From: Planctomycetes bacterium MalM25
Lineage (GTDB): Bacteria > Planctomycetota > Planctomycetia > Pirellulales > Lacipirellulaceae
Direction: 5' to 3'
Assembly: GCA_007745835.1 (NCBI GenBank)
Contig: CP036424.1
Location: forward strand, 62,001-126,000
Length of the DNA: 64,000 bases
Shown: positions 54,673-63,184 of the stretch, in pieces
How positions within the stretch are numbered: position 1 is the stretch's first letter
Layout: every line of letters starts with the position of its first letter
The notes under the pieces: generated by a model
What the model saw: only the letters and a program-made list of their open reading frames with translations
Databases searched by the model: none
What the model was told of the DNA's origin: nothing
Made by a program: the position numbers and the translations under genes

Positions 54673-55587
54673 TTAGAAGTAGCCCTCTTTCTTCTTCTCT
54701 TCCATGCTGCCCGCTTGGTCGTGGTCGATCACGCGGCCTTGGCGTTCGCTCGTGGTGGTGAGCAGCATCTCTTGGATGATCTCGGGGAGGGTTGTCGCCT
54801 CGCTCTCAACGGCGCCCGTTAGCGGGTAGCACCCGAGTGTGCGGAAGCGGACCATCTTCTCTTCGATGACGTCGTCCTCTTCGATCGGCATGCGGTCGTC
54901 GTTGACCTGGATCAGCACGCCATCCTTCATGACGACCTTCCGCTTCTTCGAGAAGTACAGGTCGGGGATCGGGATCTTCTCGAGGTGGATGTACTGCCAG
55001 ACGTCGAGCTCGGTCCAGTTGCTGATCGGGAAGACGCGGATCGATTCGCCGAGGCTGCGGTTCACGCGGCCGTTGTACAGGTTCCACAGCTCGGGGCGCT
55101 GGTTCTTGGGGTCCCAGGCGTGGCTCTTGTCGCGGAAGCTGTAGACGCGCTCCTTCGCTCGCGACTTCTCCTCGTCCCGCCGAGCGCCGCCAAACGCCGC
55201 GTCGAAGCCGTGCTTGTCGAGCGCCTGCTTGAGCGCGACGGTCTTCATGATCCGGGTGTGGACGTCTGAGCCATGGGTGAACGGCCCGACGCCCTCTTGG
55301 ATTCCCTCTTCGTTGCTGTGGACGATCAGGTCCCAGCCGAGGTCGTTCTTCACGTAGCTGTCGCGGAACTCGATCATCTCCTTGAACTTCCACGTCGTGT
55401 CGACGTGCATCAAGGGAAACGGCGGCTTGCCCGGAGCGAACGCCTTCTCGGCGAGCCGGACCATGCAGGCGGAGTCCTTGCCGACCGAGTACAGCATCAC
55501 CGGGTTGTCGAACTCGGCGGCCACCTCGCGGATGATGTGGATGCTCTCGGCCTCAAGCTGCTTGAGGTGCGTCAGGTTGTACGACAC
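54673..55587 (-). CDS. cysD: Sulfate adenylyltransferase subunit 2
   Basis: The 304-aa protein has the PP-loop of CysD ([20 protein letters not shown]), [36 protein letters not shown] and [16 protein letters not shown]. It adenylates sulfate with ATP, driven by CysN GTP hydrolysis. The start is a GTG at 55587. It is the first gene of the operon, 139 bp from cysNC. Confidence 0.97.
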
Positions 55588-55762: not shown

Positions 55763-56131
55763 TTAAGCCCGTCCCCGGCGGGCCACCAAGGCCCCCAAGA
55801 TCGCCAAACCGAGCCCCGACCACCGCAGCGCGGCCCGACGGGCGCCGGCCGTCCCGGCCGCCGATTGACGCTCCGCATCGAGATCGGCGAAGACGATCCG
55901 CGACTCTCGCAGCCGTTCCATCGCCTCCTGATCCCCGTCCGCGGTCAGCGAGAGGCCGTGCAATTCGGCCGAGGCCTTCTGGTACTCAACCGCCCGAGAC
56001 TCGGTCCAGCTCCGATCCCGTAGCATGGAATCGGGCAAGACCAGCGAGGCAACGAAGAGAGCGACTCCCAGCAGAGCCAACCCGGGCCCCACCCACCGCG
56101 CGAGCCCGGCGTCCCGCGTTTCGGCGGTCAC
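55763..56131 (-). CDS. Small two-helix membrane protein
   Basis: The 122-aa protein starts at a GTG at 56131 (VTAETRDAGLARWVGPGLALL) and has two hydrophobic helices, at about 12-30 and 100-117, with a charged helical loop between (DGDQEAMERLRESRIVFADL). Its start overlaps the stop of the DUF1559 gene by 4 bp (GTGA), so it depends on the translation of that gene. Family unknown; the context suggests a partner of the pseudopilin-like protein. Confidence 0.7.
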   Translation of the reverse strand: MTAETRDAGLARWVGPGLALLGVALFVASLVLPDSMLRDRSWTESRAVEYQKASAELHGLSLTADGDQEAMERLRESRIVFADLDAERQSAAGTAGARRAALRWSGLGLAILGALVARRGRA

Positions 56132-57261
56132 TTGCTCGCCTCGAGTTGGGCATCGACGTGGCCGCGGCCGACGTAGTCGTCGTGGATGCCGATCGTCAGC
56201 GACATGAGGACCGGATCGACGTCGTTGCTGAGGAACTCGACCCGCCCATCCAGGTAGGCGCTGTTCACCCCGCCCGGGTGCCGGCTGCGCGGAGCCGAAG
56301 ATTGATAGCCCGCCATGCCGACTTGGTTCTCTGAAGTGGGGTTCACCCCAACCCATTCGCCGCACGGCATGCCGTCGAGCTGCGCGGCGGCCAGAGACTC
56401 CTCGGGACAGTGGACGAGCGTGTCGTAATTCGGTCCGGCGTGGTTGGGCGTCTGGGATTGGTACTCGTAGCGCCCATTCGCATAGAAGCGGTTGAAGATA
56501 CTGCCGGCGGCATCGGAGTTGTGGTGCATGTCCATCGCCAGGAGCGTCGCCGCGTTCCACGCCAGTGCCCAAACGCCCCGTTCGTCGGCCTGCTCGGGGC
56601 TGGTGCGGACCTCGCTGAAAGCCATGGTGTGGGACAAGCCGTCGGTGATCTTTCGCAGCGTGTTGGGCCGGGCGACCAGGGCGCCGGGGTGCAAGAGCTG
56701 CAGGTCGTTGTGGTACGGCGTGGTGAAGCCGGCATAGTTGCCCTTCGCGAAGGAGCGTCCCGAAGCGAAATCGGGGTCGATGAAGAACCGACCCGAAGCC
56801 TCGTCGGAGGGGCACGCGAGTGAAGCCACGAAGGTCGCTTGCGGGTCCCCTGCCTGCTGATCCACCGGGATCGACAAGTCGAACTGGTCGAAGAGCGGCG
56901 CCTCTTCCATGAAGGGCAAGAGGAGCACGGCCCAGCTGTGCATCCTGCCGTTAAACTGATCGACGGCTTCGTAGGCACGCCTCGCGTAGACTTTCTCGAC
57001 CGGGTCGAGGAGCCCGCAGGGGGGCAGCTCCTCGTTGGCCGATTCGTAGTTGATCGTGGCGAGCGTAATCTGCTTCAGGTGGTTCACGCACTGCGTCCGC
57101 CGCGCCGACTCGCGCGCCGCCTGCACGGCGGGCAGCAGCAGAGCGACCAGCACGCCGATGATCGCGATCACCACCAGCAACTCGACCAGCGTGAACGCGG
57201 ACGCGCGTGGCGACGCGGCGACGCGGCGGCGGGGCGACGGTTGGGCGGCGAGATGAGACAT
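56128..57261 (-). CDS. DUF1559 pseudopilin-like protein
   Basis: The 377-aa protein has a prepilin-type N-terminus (SAFTLVELLVVIAIIGVLVA, residues 21-40) followed by LLLPAVQAARESARRTQCVN and the large DUF1559 domain that ends with NSAYLDGRVEFLSNDVDP. The cleavage site has Ala, not Gly, before FTLVE. DUF1559 proteins are very abundant in planctomycetes; they are thought to be pilin-like surface proteins, with no known partner. The ATG at 57261 is preferred; 57330 is an alternative. Confidence 0.92.
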   Translation of the reverse strand: MSHLAAQPSPRRRVAASPRASAFTLVELLVVIAIIGVLVALLLPAVQAARESARRTQCVNHLKQITLATINYESANEELPPCGLLDPVEKVYARRAYEAVDQFNGRMHSWAVLLLPFMEEAPLFDQFDLSIPVDQQAGDPQATFVASLACPSDEASGRFFIDPDFASGRSFAKGNYAGFTTPYHNDLQLLHPGALVARPNTLRKITDGLSHTMAFSEVRTSPEQADERGVWALAWNAATLLAMDMHHNSDAAGSIFNRFYANGRYEYQSQTPNHAGPNYDTLVHCPEESLAAAQLDGMPCGEWVGVNPTSENQVGMAGYQSSAPRSRHPGGVNSAYLDGRVEFLSNDVDPVLMSLTIGIHDDYVGRGHVDAQLEASK

Positions 57262-57474
57262 CGTCGGTCGGATTCGGATCGTTGCGAAGCCGATTGGCCC
57301 CGGGGCTTCGCAAGCAGCAAGAAGATGCATTCTCTCACTATAGACGAGCCCCCCGCAGCAGGCGACTAGCTGGCGCCCTACGCCACCGCCGGGGGTGTGT
57401 GGTAGATTACGCGGCCCGCCGGGGGGAACCCGTAAGATCCCCCCGTTTGCCCCACCCCACCGAGACCGCTCGCT

Positions 57475-58173
57475 ATGCGATTCGCCCTCGCGATGCTGCT
57501 GTTCGCCGCTCCAGCCTTGGCTCAAGACGAACTCCCCGAGCCGGCCGCCGGTGGCGAGCCGCAGTTGCAAAAGAAAGTTGGCTACTGCCTCGGTCTCGAT
57601 TTGGGCAAACGGCTCCGCGAAGACGAAGCGCCGATCGATTTAACGTCGATCGTTGCGGGCCTCCGCGATGGCTTGAGCGGCGCGGATCCGATGCTCAGCG
57701 AAGAAGAAATCACGGCCGTTATGGGCCAGTTCCGACAACTCATGCAAAAGAAAGCGGAGGCGAAGATGGCCCAGATCGCTAGCGAGAACCTGGCCCGAGG
57801 CGAGGCGTTCCTCAAGGAGAACGGCGCCAAAGAGGGCATCCAGACGACCGAATCGGGTCTCCAGTACCGCGTTGTTGAAGAGGGGGACGGCGCGTCGCCC
57901 GGGCCCTCGGACACCGTCCGCTGCCACTACGAAGGCAAGCTGATCAACGGCGAGATCTTCGACAGCTCGATCCAGCGCGGCGAGCCCGCCGAGTTCCCGG
58001 TCAACCGCGTGATCGCGGGTTGGACCGAGGCGCTGCAGAAGATGAAGACCGGCGCCAAGTGGGAAGTCTTCCTCCCGGCCGACATCGCCTACGGCCCGAG
58101 TGGAGCGGGTGGCGCCATCGGTCCGAACGAGACGCTGATCTTCCAGATCGAGCTGATCGACATCGTCGATTAA
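57475..58173 (+). CDS. FKBP-type peptidyl-prolyl cis-trans isomerase, exported (FklB/Mip-like)
   Basis: The 232-aa protein has a signal peptide (MRFALAMLLFAAPALAQ), a helical dimerisation segment (about 30-120) and a C-terminal FKBP domain (about 125-232) with VRCHYEGKLINGEIFDSSIQ, EFPVNRVIAGWTEALQKMK, IAYGPSG and LIFQIELIDI. This plan matches Mip/FkpA/FklB, folding helpers of the periplasm. It is divergent from the DUF1559 gene. Confidence 0.93.
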   Translation: MRFALAMLLFAAPALAQDELPEPAAGGEPQLQKKVGYCLGLDLGKRLREDEAPIDLTSIVAGLRDGLSGADPMLSEEEITAVMGQFRQLMQKKAEAKMAQIASENLARGEAFLKENGAKEGIQTTESGLQYRVVEEGDGASPGPSDTVRCHYEGKLINGEIFDSSIQRGEPAEFPVNRVIAGWTEALQKMKTGAKWEVFLPADIAYGPSGAGGAIGPNETLIFQIELIDIVD

Positions 58174-58593: not shown

Positions 58594-60261
58594 ATGCGGC
58601 GTACTTTGTTCGCCTTGCTGCCGGCAATCGCTTTGCTGGTTGCAAGCACGCAGGCTCAAGCCTGTTCAGATTGTGGCTGCAGCTCCGGCTGTGGCGAGGC
58701 AGCGGCAGCCGATTGTGGCTGCGATGGCGGTAGCGACAGCGGTTGTGCTGGCGGTTGCGGCGAAGCCGCGGCTCCGGCTTGCGGCCCGGCGATGGTCACC
58801 AAGACCATCTACGTTCCGCAGCAAGTCACGGAGATGCGTACGGTCACCTCGACCGAGTACACCAAGGAGACTCGCGAGAAGACCTACACGGTCATGAAGC
58901 GTGTCCCGCAGACCGAAGAGAAGACCCGCACCTACACGGTGATGGTCCCCGAGCAGCGCTCGAAGACCGTCGAGTACACCGTCATGACGCAGGTCCCCGA
59001 GACCAAGACGGTCGACTACACCGTCATGGTGCCGGTCACCGAGCAGGTCGAGCAGACCTACACGGTCATGACGCAGGTCCCCGAGGAGAAGACCTCGACC
59101 TACACCGTTCACGTCCCCTCCTACTCGGAGAAGGAAGTTGATTACACCGTGATGGTGCCGGTGCAGGAAGAGAAGACCTCGACCTACACGGTCATGGTCC
59201 CCTCCTACTCGGAGAAGGAAGTTGAGTACACCGTGATGACTCAGGTTCCCGAGGAGAAGACCTCGACCTATACCGTCCAGGTTCCTTACACCGAGGAAGT
59301 CGAGCAGACCTACACGGTCAGCGTCCCGTACACGGAGACCGTCGAGGCGACTCGCACCGTTTCCAAGTGCGTGCCCGTCACGACCACGAAGACCGTTCAG
59401 GTCTCCGGCGGTCACTACGAGACCCAGATGGTTGAGGTCCCGTGCGGCGGCGGCTCGGCCTGTGGCGGCGGCTGCGGCTCGGACTGCGGCGGCTGTGGTG
59501 ACTGCGGCGGTTGCGGCGAGTGCGGCGGCTGCGGCTGTGGCACCAAGACCGTCTGCAAGAAGGTCTGGGTCCCGACCTGCGAGACCAAGGAAGTCCCCGT
59601 GACGACCTACGAGCGCGTCACCGAAGAGGTCCCGTACACGTACAACGTGTGCAAGACCCGCACCGAGGAGCGCTCGCGCACCGTCACCGTGACTAAGTGC
59701 AACACCGAGGAGCGGACCCGCACTTACACCGTCATGAAGTGCGTGCCCGAGACCAAGACCAAGACGGTCAAGGTTTGCACGATGGTTCCCGAGGAGCGCA
59801 CCAAGACCTACACGGTCACCAAGTGCGTCCCCGAGACCCGCACGAAGACGGTCAAGGTTTGCACGATGGTTCCCGAGGAGCGCACCAAGACCTACACGGT
59901 CATGAAGTGCGTCCCCGAGACCAAGACTCGCACCGTCAACGTGACCAAGTGCGTCGCTGAGACCCGCTCGAAGGAAGTGACCACCATGAAGTGCGTCCCC
60001 GAGACGCGCACCAAGGAAGTCACCTACACCGAGTGCGTTCCGCAAGAGAAGACCGAGACCTACACGGTCACGACTTACTCCTGCGTGCCCGAGGAAAAGA
60101 CCTCGACCTACGAGGTCTGCGTTCCCGTCACGGTCACGAAGGAAGTCCCGGTCACCGTCTGCAAGATGGTCGCTCAGGAAGTGACCGTCCCCGCCCCGAG
60201 CTGCGGTGGTGGTTGCGGCGGCTGTGGCGCCCCGGCGGCTTCGGGTTGCGGCTGCAACTGA
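58594..60261 (+). CDS. Cysteine-rich YTV-repeat envelope protein
   Basis: The 555-aa protein has a signal peptide (1-23, cleavage before Cys24) and consists almost wholly of 14-residue units. Residues about 98-255 hold about ten units such as TYTVMTQVPEEKTS and EYTVMTQVPETKTV with no cysteine; residues about 363-520 hold about eleven units such as TYTVMKCVPETKTK and TVKVCTMVPEERTK with about one cysteine each. Cys-Gly-rich blocks lie at residues 24-63, 284-316 and 537-555. This is the YTV family described from Rhodopirellula baltica and associated with the planctomycete cell wall. The start has GGGAGGA eight nt upstream; a promoter and a strong terminator flank the gene. An antisense open frame of 459 codons is a codon-bias artefact. 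Likely disulfide-linked surface protein, inferred. Confidence 0.9.
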   Translation: MRRTLFALLPAIALLVASTQAQACSDCGCSSGCGEAAAADCGCDGGSDSGCAGGCGEAAAPACGPAMVTKTIYVPQQVTEMRTVTSTEYTKETREKTYTVMKRVPQTEEKTRTYTVMVPEQRSKTVEYTVMTQVPETKTVDYTVMVPVTEQVEQTYTVMTQVPEEKTSTYTVHVPSYSEKEVDYTVMVPVQEEKTSTYTVMVPSYSEKEVEYTVMTQVPEEKTSTYTVQVPYTEEVEQTYTVSVPYTETVEATRTVSKCVPVTTTKTVQVSGGHYETQMVEVPCGGGSACGGGCGSDCGGCGDCGGCGECGGCGCGTKTVCKKVWVPTCETKEVPVTTYERVTEEVPYTYNVCKTRTEERSRTVTVTKCNTEERTRTYTVMKCVPETKTKTVKVCTMVPEERTKTYTVTKCVPETRTKTVKVCTMVPEERTKTYTVMKCVPETKTRTVNVTKCVAETRSKEVTTMKCVPETRTKEVTYTECVPQEKTETYTVTTYSCVPEEKTSTYEVCVPVTVTKEVPVTVCKMVAQEVTVPAPSCGGGCGGCGAPAASGCGCN

Positions 60262-60367: not shown

Positions 60368-61513
60368 TTAGCCGCGATCTAGGTACGCGGCGCAAGCATC
60401 GACGATCCGCCCCGCGGCGCGACCGTCGCCGTAGGGGTTCACCGCCTCGGCCATGGCGCGGTAGGCGGCCTCGTCCGTGAGCAGCTCGGAGACGCCGCTC
60501 ACGATCGCCTCGGAGACCGGTCCAACCAGGCGCACCGTGCCGGCATCGACCCCCTCGGGGCGTTCGGTCGTGTCCCGCATGACGAGCACCGGCTTGCCGA
60601 GGCTGGGAGCCTCCTCCTGCACGCCGCCCGAGTCGGTCAGCACGACGCGGCACGCCGCCAGCAGGGCGACGAACTCGCTGTACGGCTGGGGCGGCAGGAG
60701 ACGTACGTTCTCCAAGGCCCCCAGCCGCTCGTGGACCACGCCCTTCACGTTCGGGTTCAGGTGGACCGGGTAGACGAACAGCGTGTCCGTGTGGCGGGTG
60801 GCGAGCGTCTCGATCGCGGTGCAGATCTGGGCGAAGCCCTCACCGAAGTTTTCGCGACGGTGCCCGGTCACCAGGACCATCGGCCGCTCGAACAGGTCGG
60901 GACCCCCCAGCTCGCTGAGCGTCGTCCGCAACGCTTCGCCGACGGCGGGGTCCTCCTGCCGGCGGCGCTCCATCTGGAGGGCGTCGATCACCGTGTTGCC
61001 GGTCACGAACACCGACTCCCGGGCGATGCCCTCGCGCAGCAGATTGGCTTGCGACGCCTCGGTCGGGGCGAAGTGCAGTGCGGCCAGCGGCGTGGTGAGC
61101 CGGCGGTTGCCCTCCTCGGGGAAGGGCGAAGCCATGTCGCCCGTGCGGAGGCCCGCCTCGACGTGGCCGACCGGCGCCCGGCGGTAGAACGAGGCGAGCG
61201 CCCCGGTGAGCACCGTGGTCGTGTCGCCCTGCACGAGGACGAGCTTCGGGTCGAGGGCGACGAGCGCTTCGTCCAACGCGGTCAGCAGCCGCGAAGTGAG
61301 CGAGGCGAGCGACTGATCGGGACGCATCACCGCCAGATCGCGATCGACTCTCAGGCCGAAGAGCGAGATCACTTGATCGATCAGCTCCCGGTGCTGGCCC
61401 GTGTTGACGACCACCGGCTCGAGCCGCTCGTCCGCCTCGAGCGCGGCGATCACGGGGGCCAGCTTGATCGCTTCGGGGCGGGTGCCCATCAGGACGGCGA
61501 CGCGGTGTTTCAT
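60368..61513 (-). CDS. wecB: UDP-N-acetylglucosamine 2-epimerase (non-hydrolysing)
   Basis: The 381-aa protein matches WecB/MnaA: VAVLMGTRPEAIKLAPVIAA, VNTGQHRELIDQVISLFGL, VQGDTTTVLTGALASFYR, GHVEAGLRTGDMASPFPEEG, VTGHRRENFGEGF and VLTDSGGVQEEAPSLGKPVL. It converts UDP-GlcNAc to UDP-ManNAc for surface polysaccharide. The ATG at 61513 gives the family start MKHRVAVLMGTRPE. It is divergent from the flippase gene. Confidence 0.96.
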   Translation of the reverse strand: MKHRVAVLMGTRPEAIKLAPVIAALEADERLEPVVVNTGQHRELIDQVISLFGLRVDRDLAVMRPDQSLASLTSRLLTALDEALVALDPKLVLVQGDTTTVLTGALASFYRRAPVGHVEAGLRTGDMASPFPEEGNRRLTTPLAALHFAPTEASQANLLREGIARESVFVTGNTVIDALQMERRRQEDPAVGEALRTTLSELGGPDLFERPMVLVTGHRRENFGEGFAQICTAIETLATRHTDTLFVYPVHLNPNVKGVVHERLGALENVRLLPPQPYSEFVALLAACRVVLTDSGGVQEEAPSLGKPVLVMRDTTERPEGVDAGTVRLVGPVSEAIVSGVSELLTDEAAYRAMAEAVNPYGDGRAAGRIVDACAAYLDRG

Positions 61514-61690
61514 GGGGTGTGCTGGGGGACTGGAAAGCGAATCGCGGAACGCTTCGAGTGTAATCCGCGTCGGACAGTTCGGCGAAAAGGTGGCGTCCGG
61601 TTGTAGCGGTTGTGCCGCCTCCGCCGCGTGCGTCCCAACGTGAGTTAGATTTGGACTCGTCCTGCGAACGGGCGACCCGTCCGCCCCTCC

Positions 61691-63184
61691 ATGCAAGCAG
61701 GCCCTCGATTGCCCGCGACCGATTACTTTTCGCACGAGCGGGCCCGCCAAGACCTGATGCGGAAGACGGTGCGTGGTGGCGCCGCGGCGGGTGTGGCCCA
61801 GGTGGCCGGGATCGTCATTCAGGTTATCAGCATCCCGATCCTCTCGCGATTGCTCGGCCCGGATGACTTTGGCGTCGTCAACATGGCGGTGATCTTCACC
61901 GGCTTCGGGCAGCTGCTGATCGATTCGGGCTTCGCCTCGGCGACGGTTCAGCGCGATGACCTGACGCGCCAGCAAGCCTCGAACCTGTTCTGGATCGCCA
62001 CCGCGGCGGGGGTTTCTCTGGCAGCCATGTTGAGCGCGTTATCGGTCCCCATTTCGTGGTGGTTCGCGCGCGAGGAGGTGGCGGCCATTATCGTGGCGCT
62101 GTCACTCCCGTTTGTTCTGGCGGGGATGACGATCCAGCACCAAGCGCTGCTGCGTCGCAACATGCGATTCGGCGAGTTGGCGATGATCCGTATCGGCGGG
62201 GTGCTGCTATCGCAGAGCGTCACGATCGGTTGCGCCTACGCCTGGCGCAGCTACTGGGCCTTGGTGGTCGGTCAGATCACGTTGGCCGCCTTCTCGATGC
62301 TCGCCACGTGGTGCTTCTGTCGGTGGCGGCCGGGTCTACCAGCACGCGGCGCAGGGACGCGGTCGTTGGTCGAGTTCGGCGCGAACCTGACGCTCGCCAA
62401 GTTCATCAACTACCTCACACGCACCGCCGACCGCGCGCTGATCGGATCGTTCATCGACGCCGCGACGCTCGGCTTCTACGACCGCGCCTTCAAGTGCCTG
62501 CTCTTCCCGGTCCAGAACATCAACGGCCCGAGCACCTCGGTCATGGTGCCTGCGCTCAGCCGCCTCAAGGAGCAGCCCGAGCGATACAGCAAGGCCTACC
62601 TAACCGCGCTCACGGCGTTGGCGACCGTCGTGACGCCGTTGGTGACCGTCGCGGCGATCGATTCGGAGCGGCTCATCCCCCTGATCCTGGGCGACCTGTG
62701 GCGCCCGTCGATCCCGATCTTCCAGGCGCTGATCCCCGCGGCCTACCTGGCGGTTTTCAGTTCGGTCTTCTCGTGGATCTACGTCTCTCAGGGGCGGGGA
62801 GTCGATCAAGTCCGCTGGCAGATCATCAACGGGGTGGCGACTCTCGCGGGGGTTGTCTGCGGGCTCCGGTGGGGCGCTGTGGGCGTCGCTTGGGGCTTCT
62901 CAGCCAGCCGTCTGATCGTGATGCCGATCGGTTTCTGGCTCAGCTTTCGTGGGGCGCCGATGACGATCCCCGAGTTGCTCCAAGCAATCCGCCCCGTGGC
63001 CCTCAGCGCTCTGACCGCGGCCGGCGCCGGTTTGAACGCCAAGGCCTGGGCGCCCGAACGGTTCGCCTTGTCTTCGTGGGGATCGACGCTGATGCTCGCG
63101 GCGCTAACCGTCGGCGTCTTCCTCGCCACCGCGCAAGCCTTGGGTTTGCCCAAGAGGGTCCTCACCGTCCTCCGCCGAAAGTGA
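61691..63184 (+). CDS. Polysaccharide flippase (MOP superfamily, Wzx/WzxC-like)
   Basis: The 497-aa protein has about twelve to fourteen hydrophobic helices and the N-terminal family pattern GGAAAGVAQVAGIVIQVISI, PILSRLLGPDDFGVVNMAVI, then QASNLFWIATAAGVSLAAML and NINGPSTSVMVPALSRLKEQ. Members move lipid-linked oligosaccharides across the inner membrane. It faces wecB, 177 bp apart, and ends 5 bp before the stop of the convergent sulfotransferase gene. This suggests a surface polysaccharide group; the polymer is unknown. Confidence 0.9.
   Translation: MQAGPRLPATDYFSHERARQDLMRKTVRGGAAAGVAQVAGIVIQVISIPILSRLLGPDDFGVVNMAVIFTGFGQLLIDSGFASATVQRDDLTRQQASNLFWIATAAGVSLAAMLSALSVPISWWFAREEVAAIIVALSLPFVLAGMTIQHQALLRRNMRFGELAMIRIGGVLLSQSVTIGCAYAWRSYWALVVGQITLAAFSMLATWCFCRWRPGLPARGAGTRSLVEFGANLTLAKFINYLTRTADRALIGSFIDAATLGFYDRAFKCLLFPVQNINGPSTSVMVPALSRLKEQPERYSKAYLTALTALATVVTPLVTVAAIDSERLIPLILGDLWRPSIPIFQALIPAAYLAVFSSVFSWIYVSQGRGVDQVRWQIINGVATLAGVVCGLRWGAVGVAWGFSASRLIVMPIGFWLSFRGAPMTIPELLQAIRPVALSALTAAGAGLNAKAWAPERFALSSWGSTLMLAALTVGVFLATAQALGLPKRVLTVLRRK

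Follow-up and report, generated by a model that had tools for sequence, protein, structure and literature searches.

A YTV-family envelope protein of a planctomycete is probably a single giant two-stranded beta-hairpin

The YTV gene of Planctomycetes bacterium MalM25 lies in a stretch of 64,000 nucleotides of contig CP036424.1 (the window; Table 1), and we think it probable that its product, a putatively secreted envelope protein, is one giant antiparallel beta-hairpin, that is, a two-stranded beta-ribbon in which the residue numbers i and j of paired positions sum to 600. The first repeat array (array 1, residues 67–283) would run out, a Cys-Gly tip loop (284–316) would follow, and the second array (array 2, 317–533) would return alongside; the hairpin would be closed within a single chain rather than swapped into an assembly. 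That array 1 pairs antiparallel with array 2 over its whole length is very likely, and is argued for by sequence evidence together with two structure predictions. The protein has 555 residues, 40 of them cysteines, and appears to be secreted, as its N-terminus, read by eye, resembles a signal peptide.

Table 1. Features of the YTV gene, its product and its neighbours; positions count from the first nucleotide of the window
Feature	Position	Strand	Details
DUF1559 gene	56128-57570	-	N-terminal methylation (pilin-like) motif
FKBP-type prolyl isomerase	57475..58173	+	Directly upstream of the YTV gene; signal-peptide-like start; PF00254 1.3e-27, PF01346 8.9e-27
YTV open reading frame	58594-60261	+	555 aa, 40 Cys
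Putative signal peptide	58594..58662	+	Residues 1-23; AQA ahead of C24, read from sequence
Cys-rich leader, hairpin base end	58663..58791	+	Residues 24-66; 9 Cys (within 24-63)
N arm (array 1)	58792..59442	+	Residues 67-283; one Cys; landmarks E80 and Y275
Y275 codon, tip landmark facing W325	59416..59418	+	275+325=600
Cys-Gly tip loop	59443..59541	+	Residues 284-316; 10 Cys (within 284-315)
C arm (array 2)	59542..60192	+	Residues 317-533; 15 Cys, ~1 per 14 residues, on one face
W325 codon, C-arm tip landmark	59566..59568	+	Trp in 29/30 sequences of alignment A4, Tyr in the remaining one
Cys-rich tail and stop, hairpin base end	60193..60261	+	Residues 534-555; 5 Cys (within 537-554)
UDP-GlcNAc 2-epimerase and polysaccharide biosynthesis (flippase-like) gene, downstream of the YTV gene	60368-63184		

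The protein matches the YTV family of Pfam (PF07639; 1.2e-29, 102.6 bits against a curated cut-off of 21, in 13 stretches), as a model's sequence-only reading of the locus had proposed. In a sample of the phylum, YTV matches were present in 23 of 294 genomes, 21 of them in the class of the window (its own genome included) and two, both weak, outside it, while none of 14 control genomes had one. All 54 loci confirmed by a scan of genome contigs belong to planctomycetes, and a search with the window protein gave a match at E 0.001 in 184 of the 196 genomes of the order. Two further YTV genes are present in the same genome, near C1:868.6-870.1 kb (499 aa, 60 Cys) and near C1:4.298-4.299 Mb (387 aa, 20 Cys). 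NCBIfam gave no meaningful match, a PDB sequence search with the family profile found no chain at E up to 1, and our literature search, which covered open-licence papers, found no published fold for a YTV protein.

According to the passages cited here, the planctomycete wall was proposed in the 1980s to be mainly protein, and wall preparations were later shown to contain Cys-rich YTV proteins (PMC8567305); walls of Gemmata obscuriglobus obtained with boiling 10% SDS have YTV proteins among their major constituents (PMC5287468). The essential set of Planctopirus limnophila includes a YTV gene, and it has been suggested for this species that the YTV cysteines regulate wall rigidity (PMC10632474). 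The window protein is a Cys-rich member of this family, otherwise described from Rhodopirellula, Gemmata, Tuwongella and Planctopirus, with relatives located in the wall (PMC5287468, PMC8567305). The family and its wall location are thus already known, and the published accounts, as far as the cited passages go, deal with the domain and its Cys content; the fold, the paired arms and the hairpin are what the present analysis adds.

That the sequence is a repeat protein with two arrays had been recognized previously and is borne out by identity autocorrelation, which peaks at 14 and 28 residues. For the full protein, the value at lag 14 (0.373) was reached by 0 of 500 shuffles; within each array on its own, lag 28 exceeds lag 14. 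The 14-residue period had been called strict, and it is regular but not strict: the eleven YTV motifs of array 1 are spaced by 16 residues once and then by 14 nine times, the C-array cysteines are 12, 14 or 16 residues apart along most of the array, and the relatives and the two paralogues in this genome have units of 14, 16 or both. The three Cys-rich blocks noted earlier were found at residues 24–63 (9 Cys), 284–315 (10 Cys) and 537–554 (5 Cys). The N array had been described as free of cysteine, which is incorrect, as C259 sits near its end.

A two-residue rule is stronger than the 14-residue period. All 82 Val residues in the two arrays (70–283 and 316–535) are on a single parity (41/0 and 41/0), all 29 Pro are on the opposite parity, and the C-array Cys share the Pro parity in 15 cases out of 15. 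They had earlier been assigned mostly to unit position 5 or 7; they occupy sub-positions two residues apart, all on this single parity. A phase model, with weights chosen after the parity of the window protein had been seen, was applied to the 60 arrays (11,516 residues) of alignment A4, which consists of 30 sequences including the window protein. It gave 0 slips, against ~302 in shuffles, with 2004 of the 2102 array Val in phase and 98 off phase.

The lengths of the arrays obey the same rule. The difference from the window protein's array was even in 28/28 relatives for the N array and 29/29 for the C array (57/57 together), taking values that include 2, 12, 14, 26 and 28 but no odd value; elsewhere in the protein, even differences were seen in 10/26 cases for the leader, 20/29 for the spacer (tip loop) and 15/29 for the tail. 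Even-only differences are as expected for an uninterrupted beta-strand with non-exchangeable faces. Gap runs in the alignment were even in 712 of 743 cases inside the N array and 859 of 1029 inside the C array, and because the landmark distances are all even, the odd runs are attributed to the aligner's placement of gaps. Arm Pro was found at an even distance from the tip aromatic without exception, both in 49 arm pairs (901/901) and in a set of fresh relatives (502/502; 1403/1403 together), and arm Trp in 201 of 210 cases. In an antiparallel pair of strands, every second residue is bonded to the opposite strand and the residues in between have an outward-pointing NH, and Pro has no NH. The limitation of Pro to one parity on both arms is thus what a two-stranded ribbon demands, and we infer that the Pro positions are the outward, non-hydrogen-bonded sites.

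The hairpin seen by AlphaFold2 leads to a prediction that can be checked independently of any model, namely that the distance from E80 to Y275 should equal that from W325 to V520. The two distances were exactly equal in 47 of 51 relatives, and these 47 cover 17 different lengths (97–265). When partners were permuted (10,000 permutations), equal arms numbered 5.0 on average and 13 at most, and with identical arm pairs counted once, 45 of 49 were equal. The four misfits differ by 28, 28, 28 and 42. The 51 relatives comprise the 54 loci, less 13 with no closed open reading frame of >300 residues and 2 N-truncated ones with no first landmark, plus 12 further proteins, and the window type was split from a 16-residue type by our own autocorrelation cut. 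At the position of Y275, most relatives in this set have Trp.

Among the fresh relatives (29 loci, less 3 that duplicate earlier ones and 2 that lack the first landmark, other residues being accepted at a landmark), the arms were equal in 21 of 24, the misfits being 42, 28 and 42; under a stricter rule for the landmark residue and with duplicates kept, 17 of 19 were equal. Three species of the window's own genus have arms of 195/195, 179/179 and 181/181. Pooling both sets gives 68 of 75 relatives with equal arms and 7 with arms unequal by 28 or 42. On a quick tree built from the array ends, with 19 open forks, the N length, the C length and the pair each need at least 25 changes, and the mismatch at least 3. 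Since 25 joint changes stand against 3 changes in mismatch, the two distant arrays have changed length together roughly twenty times. That two distant arrays of one gene should change length jointly, to the residue, is an evolutionary puzzle.

The seven relatives with unequal arms (L079, L085, L088, L093, L136, L137 and L140) differ by whole units. They are perhaps intermediates of joint length change, or repeat assembly errors.

The direction of pairing can be read from two-residue phase shifts inside the arms. In L048, the N arm has these shifts 54, 104 and 149 residues from the tip, and the C arm has its own at 54, 98 and 149; had the arms paired in parallel, the C-arm shifts would be expected near 80, 125 and 175. 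L096 has shifts at 135 (N) and 140 (C) from the tip, and its sister L097 at 84 and 81; the three relatives with internal mirrored shifts thus amount to two lineages. Shifts at matching tip distances in both arms argue for antiparallel pairing. Eleven further shift calls are unmatched in the opposite arm: ten are ≤18 residues from an arm end, where the profile is unreliable, and one is internal (L078, C arm, 120 of 153). Pro overlap alone did not separate the directions, with values of 0.54 for antiparallel and 0.50 for parallel pairing.

The AlphaFold2 model of the window protein, made with alignment A4, has predicted strands at residues 67–172, 189–203 and 221–283 in the N arm, which shows 0 phase slips, and at 317–379, 383–397 and 428–533 in the C arm. 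The tip loop is the largest internal gap between strands. The strand ends 67+533, 172+428, 221+379 and 283+317 all sum to 600. Confidence in this model is moderate (mean pLDDT 56.7, pTM 0.24), with pLDDT of 71–85 in residues 71–130, 231–280, 321–360 and 471–530, values mostly <50 in 141–225 and 376–455, and low values in the leader. The two short strands in the low-confidence middle, 189–203 and 383–397, fit a sum of 586, one 14-residue unit off 600. For the orthologue L113, the landmarks gave i+j=480 before its AlphaFold2 model was made, and the predicted strands (53–216, 219–224, 256–261 and 264–427) give 480 at every end; the mean pLDDT was 60.9 and the pTM 0.22, and most of the 13 input sequences share one arm length. 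What a two-stranded hairpin calls for, equal arms and a constant i+j, is accordingly found in 68/75 relatives and in both models, bar a slip of 14 residues where confidence is low, midway along the arms in the model of the window protein.

A Foldseek search of the PDB gave no match at E 0.001 for either model. Among the best matches of both were pore-forming toxins (e.g. lysenin) and phage tail proteins, with TM-scores of ≤0.17 among the matches listed. These toxin stems and phage tail proteins contain long beta-hairpins; their hairpins are parts of oligomers or of larger folds, whereas in the YTV protein the hairpin would be the whole protein, with 217 residues per arm.

Charges across the modelled pair support pairing of the arms near the modelled register, but not the exact register. 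The opposite-charge score was 324 at register 0, peaked at 503 at +2 and was 394 at −1. Comparing an arm's own partner with foreign partner arms of equal length in 38 cases, the own partner was better/worse in 27/7 at register 0, 28/6 at +2, 26/8 at −2, 23/13 at +4 and 16/18 at −4. The peak at +2, the high score at −1 and the own-arm gain at −2 and +4 mean that charge does not fix the register exactly.

Cys accounts for 119 of the 5599 residues in the N arrays of alignment A4 and for 481 of the 5917 in its C arrays, and in some relatives the N array is Cys-richer (e.g. L108, 14/215). Conservation had been offered as a check on the C-array cysteines and holds in the main, though not strictly: Cys is kept at C383 (25/28 relatives) and C523 (28/29) and not at C369 (2/21) or C467 (1/24). 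In the relatives having a residue at the position, Cys is invariant at C33 (26/26) and C41 (25/25) of the leader and at C552 (27/27) and C554 (29/29) of the tail; C24, which would follow the signal peptide, is not conserved (1/28). At the model register, Cys lies opposite Cys across the arms 0 times, against 24.2 expected from 500 parity-keeping permutations (minimum 12), and in the paralogues of the 16-residue type, once against 35.6 expected. Cys–Cys coincidences exceed expectation at other offsets, e.g. −4, +10 and +12. A C-arm Cys faces Pro in 180 of 630 cases, compared with 11% of N-arm sites of the same parity. Direct cross-strand disulfides between the arms were considered and rejected, since no Cys has another opposite it at the register of the model; the arm cysteines may instead link separate molecules.

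The sequence-only reading had proposed that each 14-residue unit is one turn of a beta-solenoid or repeated beta-arch, in which the cysteines could stack as a ladder. It was right about extended beta structure, about two arrays and about Cys kept to one side, and the regular 14-residue period with alternating residues does suit such a fold. Nonetheless, we now consider a solenoid highly improbable. The structure prediction it had named as a check finds no 14-residue turn in either AlphaFold2 model, and the uninterrupted predicted strands, up to 106 residues in the window protein and 164 in L113, belong to no solenoid and no beta-arch; within the limits of models of moderate confidence, this refutes the solenoid by the test which that reading had itself set. 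Moreover, strand phase is unbroken in 60 arrays, two-residue shifts recur at matching distances from the tip, and a solenoid gives no reason for two arrays to match in their number of units. The ladder, whether for disulfides or for metal, fares no better: along an extended strand, a spacing of 14 residues would put successive cysteines ~4.6 nm from each other (at 0.33 nm per residue), too distant for an intramolecular stack. A metallothionein-like or disordered metal-binding protein, which the 40 Cys and the Cys-Gly blocks might bring to mind, is hardly more plausible, as the arm cysteines are spread ~14 residues apart and a disordered chain is ill suited to strict parity and equal-length constraints. 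Arrays paired in parallel, or two independent sheets of equal length packed side by side, would also need equal lengths, and the Pro overlap is nearly neutral towards them; the shifts in L048, L096 and L097 at like distances from the tip and the antiparallel arrangement of both AlphaFold2 models nevertheless make either very improbable.

A further alternative keeps antiparallel pairing and joins the N arm of one molecule to the C arm of its neighbour, so that the assembly is either a swapped dimer or a polymer without end. Matched lengths, parity and mirrored shifts are required here too. Sequence cannot distinguish pairing within a molecule from pairing between molecules, and Cys-Gly loops of widely varying length could act as swivels. 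We judge it unlikely, given that AlphaFold2 pairs the arms within one chain, the sum being identical at tip and base, and that a closed tip agrees with the aromatic landmarks on either side of the loop, Y/W275 and W325.

The 16-residue type of YTV protein was compared separately: of 27 proteins, 26 were entered, one was skipped and 25 were compared. An arm difference (N minus C) of −9 is shared by 13 of the 25 over four lengths, including the other two YTV proteins encoded in this genome (165/174 and 125/134), and a difference of −25 is shared by 11 at a single length. As the 13 sharing a difference are set against a permutation maximum of 12, this set is weak taken alone. The −25 group (L018, L021-L023, L028-L030, L032, L033, L037 and L046) is one 16-residue unit off the −9 group and has a shorter tip spacer, 44–45 residues; its base may be built differently. 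One protein, L057 (1885-4446), fits neither group, having a much longer N arm, with 321 residues between landmarks, and a C-terminus that is seemingly out of frame. In L001, units of 14 and 16 residues alternate in step in both arms, with Pro at 30, 44, 60, 74, 90, 104, 120 and 134 residues from the tip in one and at 32, 46, 62, 76, 92, 106, 122 and 136 in the other.

Of the 54 YTV loci, some of which have no DNA on the upstream side, six carry a homologue of the FKBP gene upstream of the YTV gene; the six (L077, L080, L081, L095, L100 and L105) are all close orthologues, and none was found in L082. The isomerase is a possible folding helper of the Pro-rich arms. Good homologues of the DUF1559 gene lie near the YTV gene in the close orthologues L077, L081, L095 and L100, with a weaker one in L091, and the UDP-GlcNAc 2-epimerase had no match in the 54 YTV loci. 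An open reading frame at 54673-55587 (−), which by its SVGKDS motif resembles CysD, the small subunit of sulfate adenylyltransferase, would place a sulfur-assimilation gene 3 kb from that of a Cys-rich protein, which may be chance.

We know of no parallel for a hairpin that makes up a whole protein, with arms of ~100 to >265 residues that agree in length to the residue in many planctomycetes. In the same superphylum, the chlamydial proteins OmcA and OmcB form a Cys-rich, disulfide-linked protein layer that strengthens the envelope. The YTV proteins may resemble them in working principle, by analogy only and with no homology claimed, and to our knowledge no giant hairpin occurs in the chlamydial Cys-rich envelope proteins.

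If the YTV protein is a closed hairpin, it would measure up to ~70 nm (217 residues at 0.33 nm) and, as a rod, would lie in the plane of the envelope. Pro at the outward sites would spare the ribbon's own bonds and would discourage edge-to-edge sheet growth and aggregation. The cysteines of the C arm, with the clusters at tip and base, could form intermolecular disulfides that tie rods side by side and end to end, and rods tied in this way would form the protein layer of the planctomycete wall. In Tuwongella, fibrous SDS-insoluble remains have been described, and the two top-scoring YTV proteins of the wall preparation were detected only in fraction S3, which is SDS-soluble; the cited passages mention a reductant only at the mass-spectrometry step (PMC8567305). 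This speaks against a layer wholly locked by disulfides in Tuwongella.

A wall woven from disulfide-linked giant beta-hairpins, as single-chain rods of ~40 to 95 nm with arms kept equal to the residue by selection, is a tentative proposal, somewhat short of an even chance in our estimate. We know of no fibre that matches such a principle. The paired-arm model offers the family a fold, a length in nanometres for each orthologue, a register that can be tested by crosslinking and a role for the cysteines. The woven wall, if true, would give planctomycetes a principle of wall building unlike peptidoglycan and unlike S-layers.
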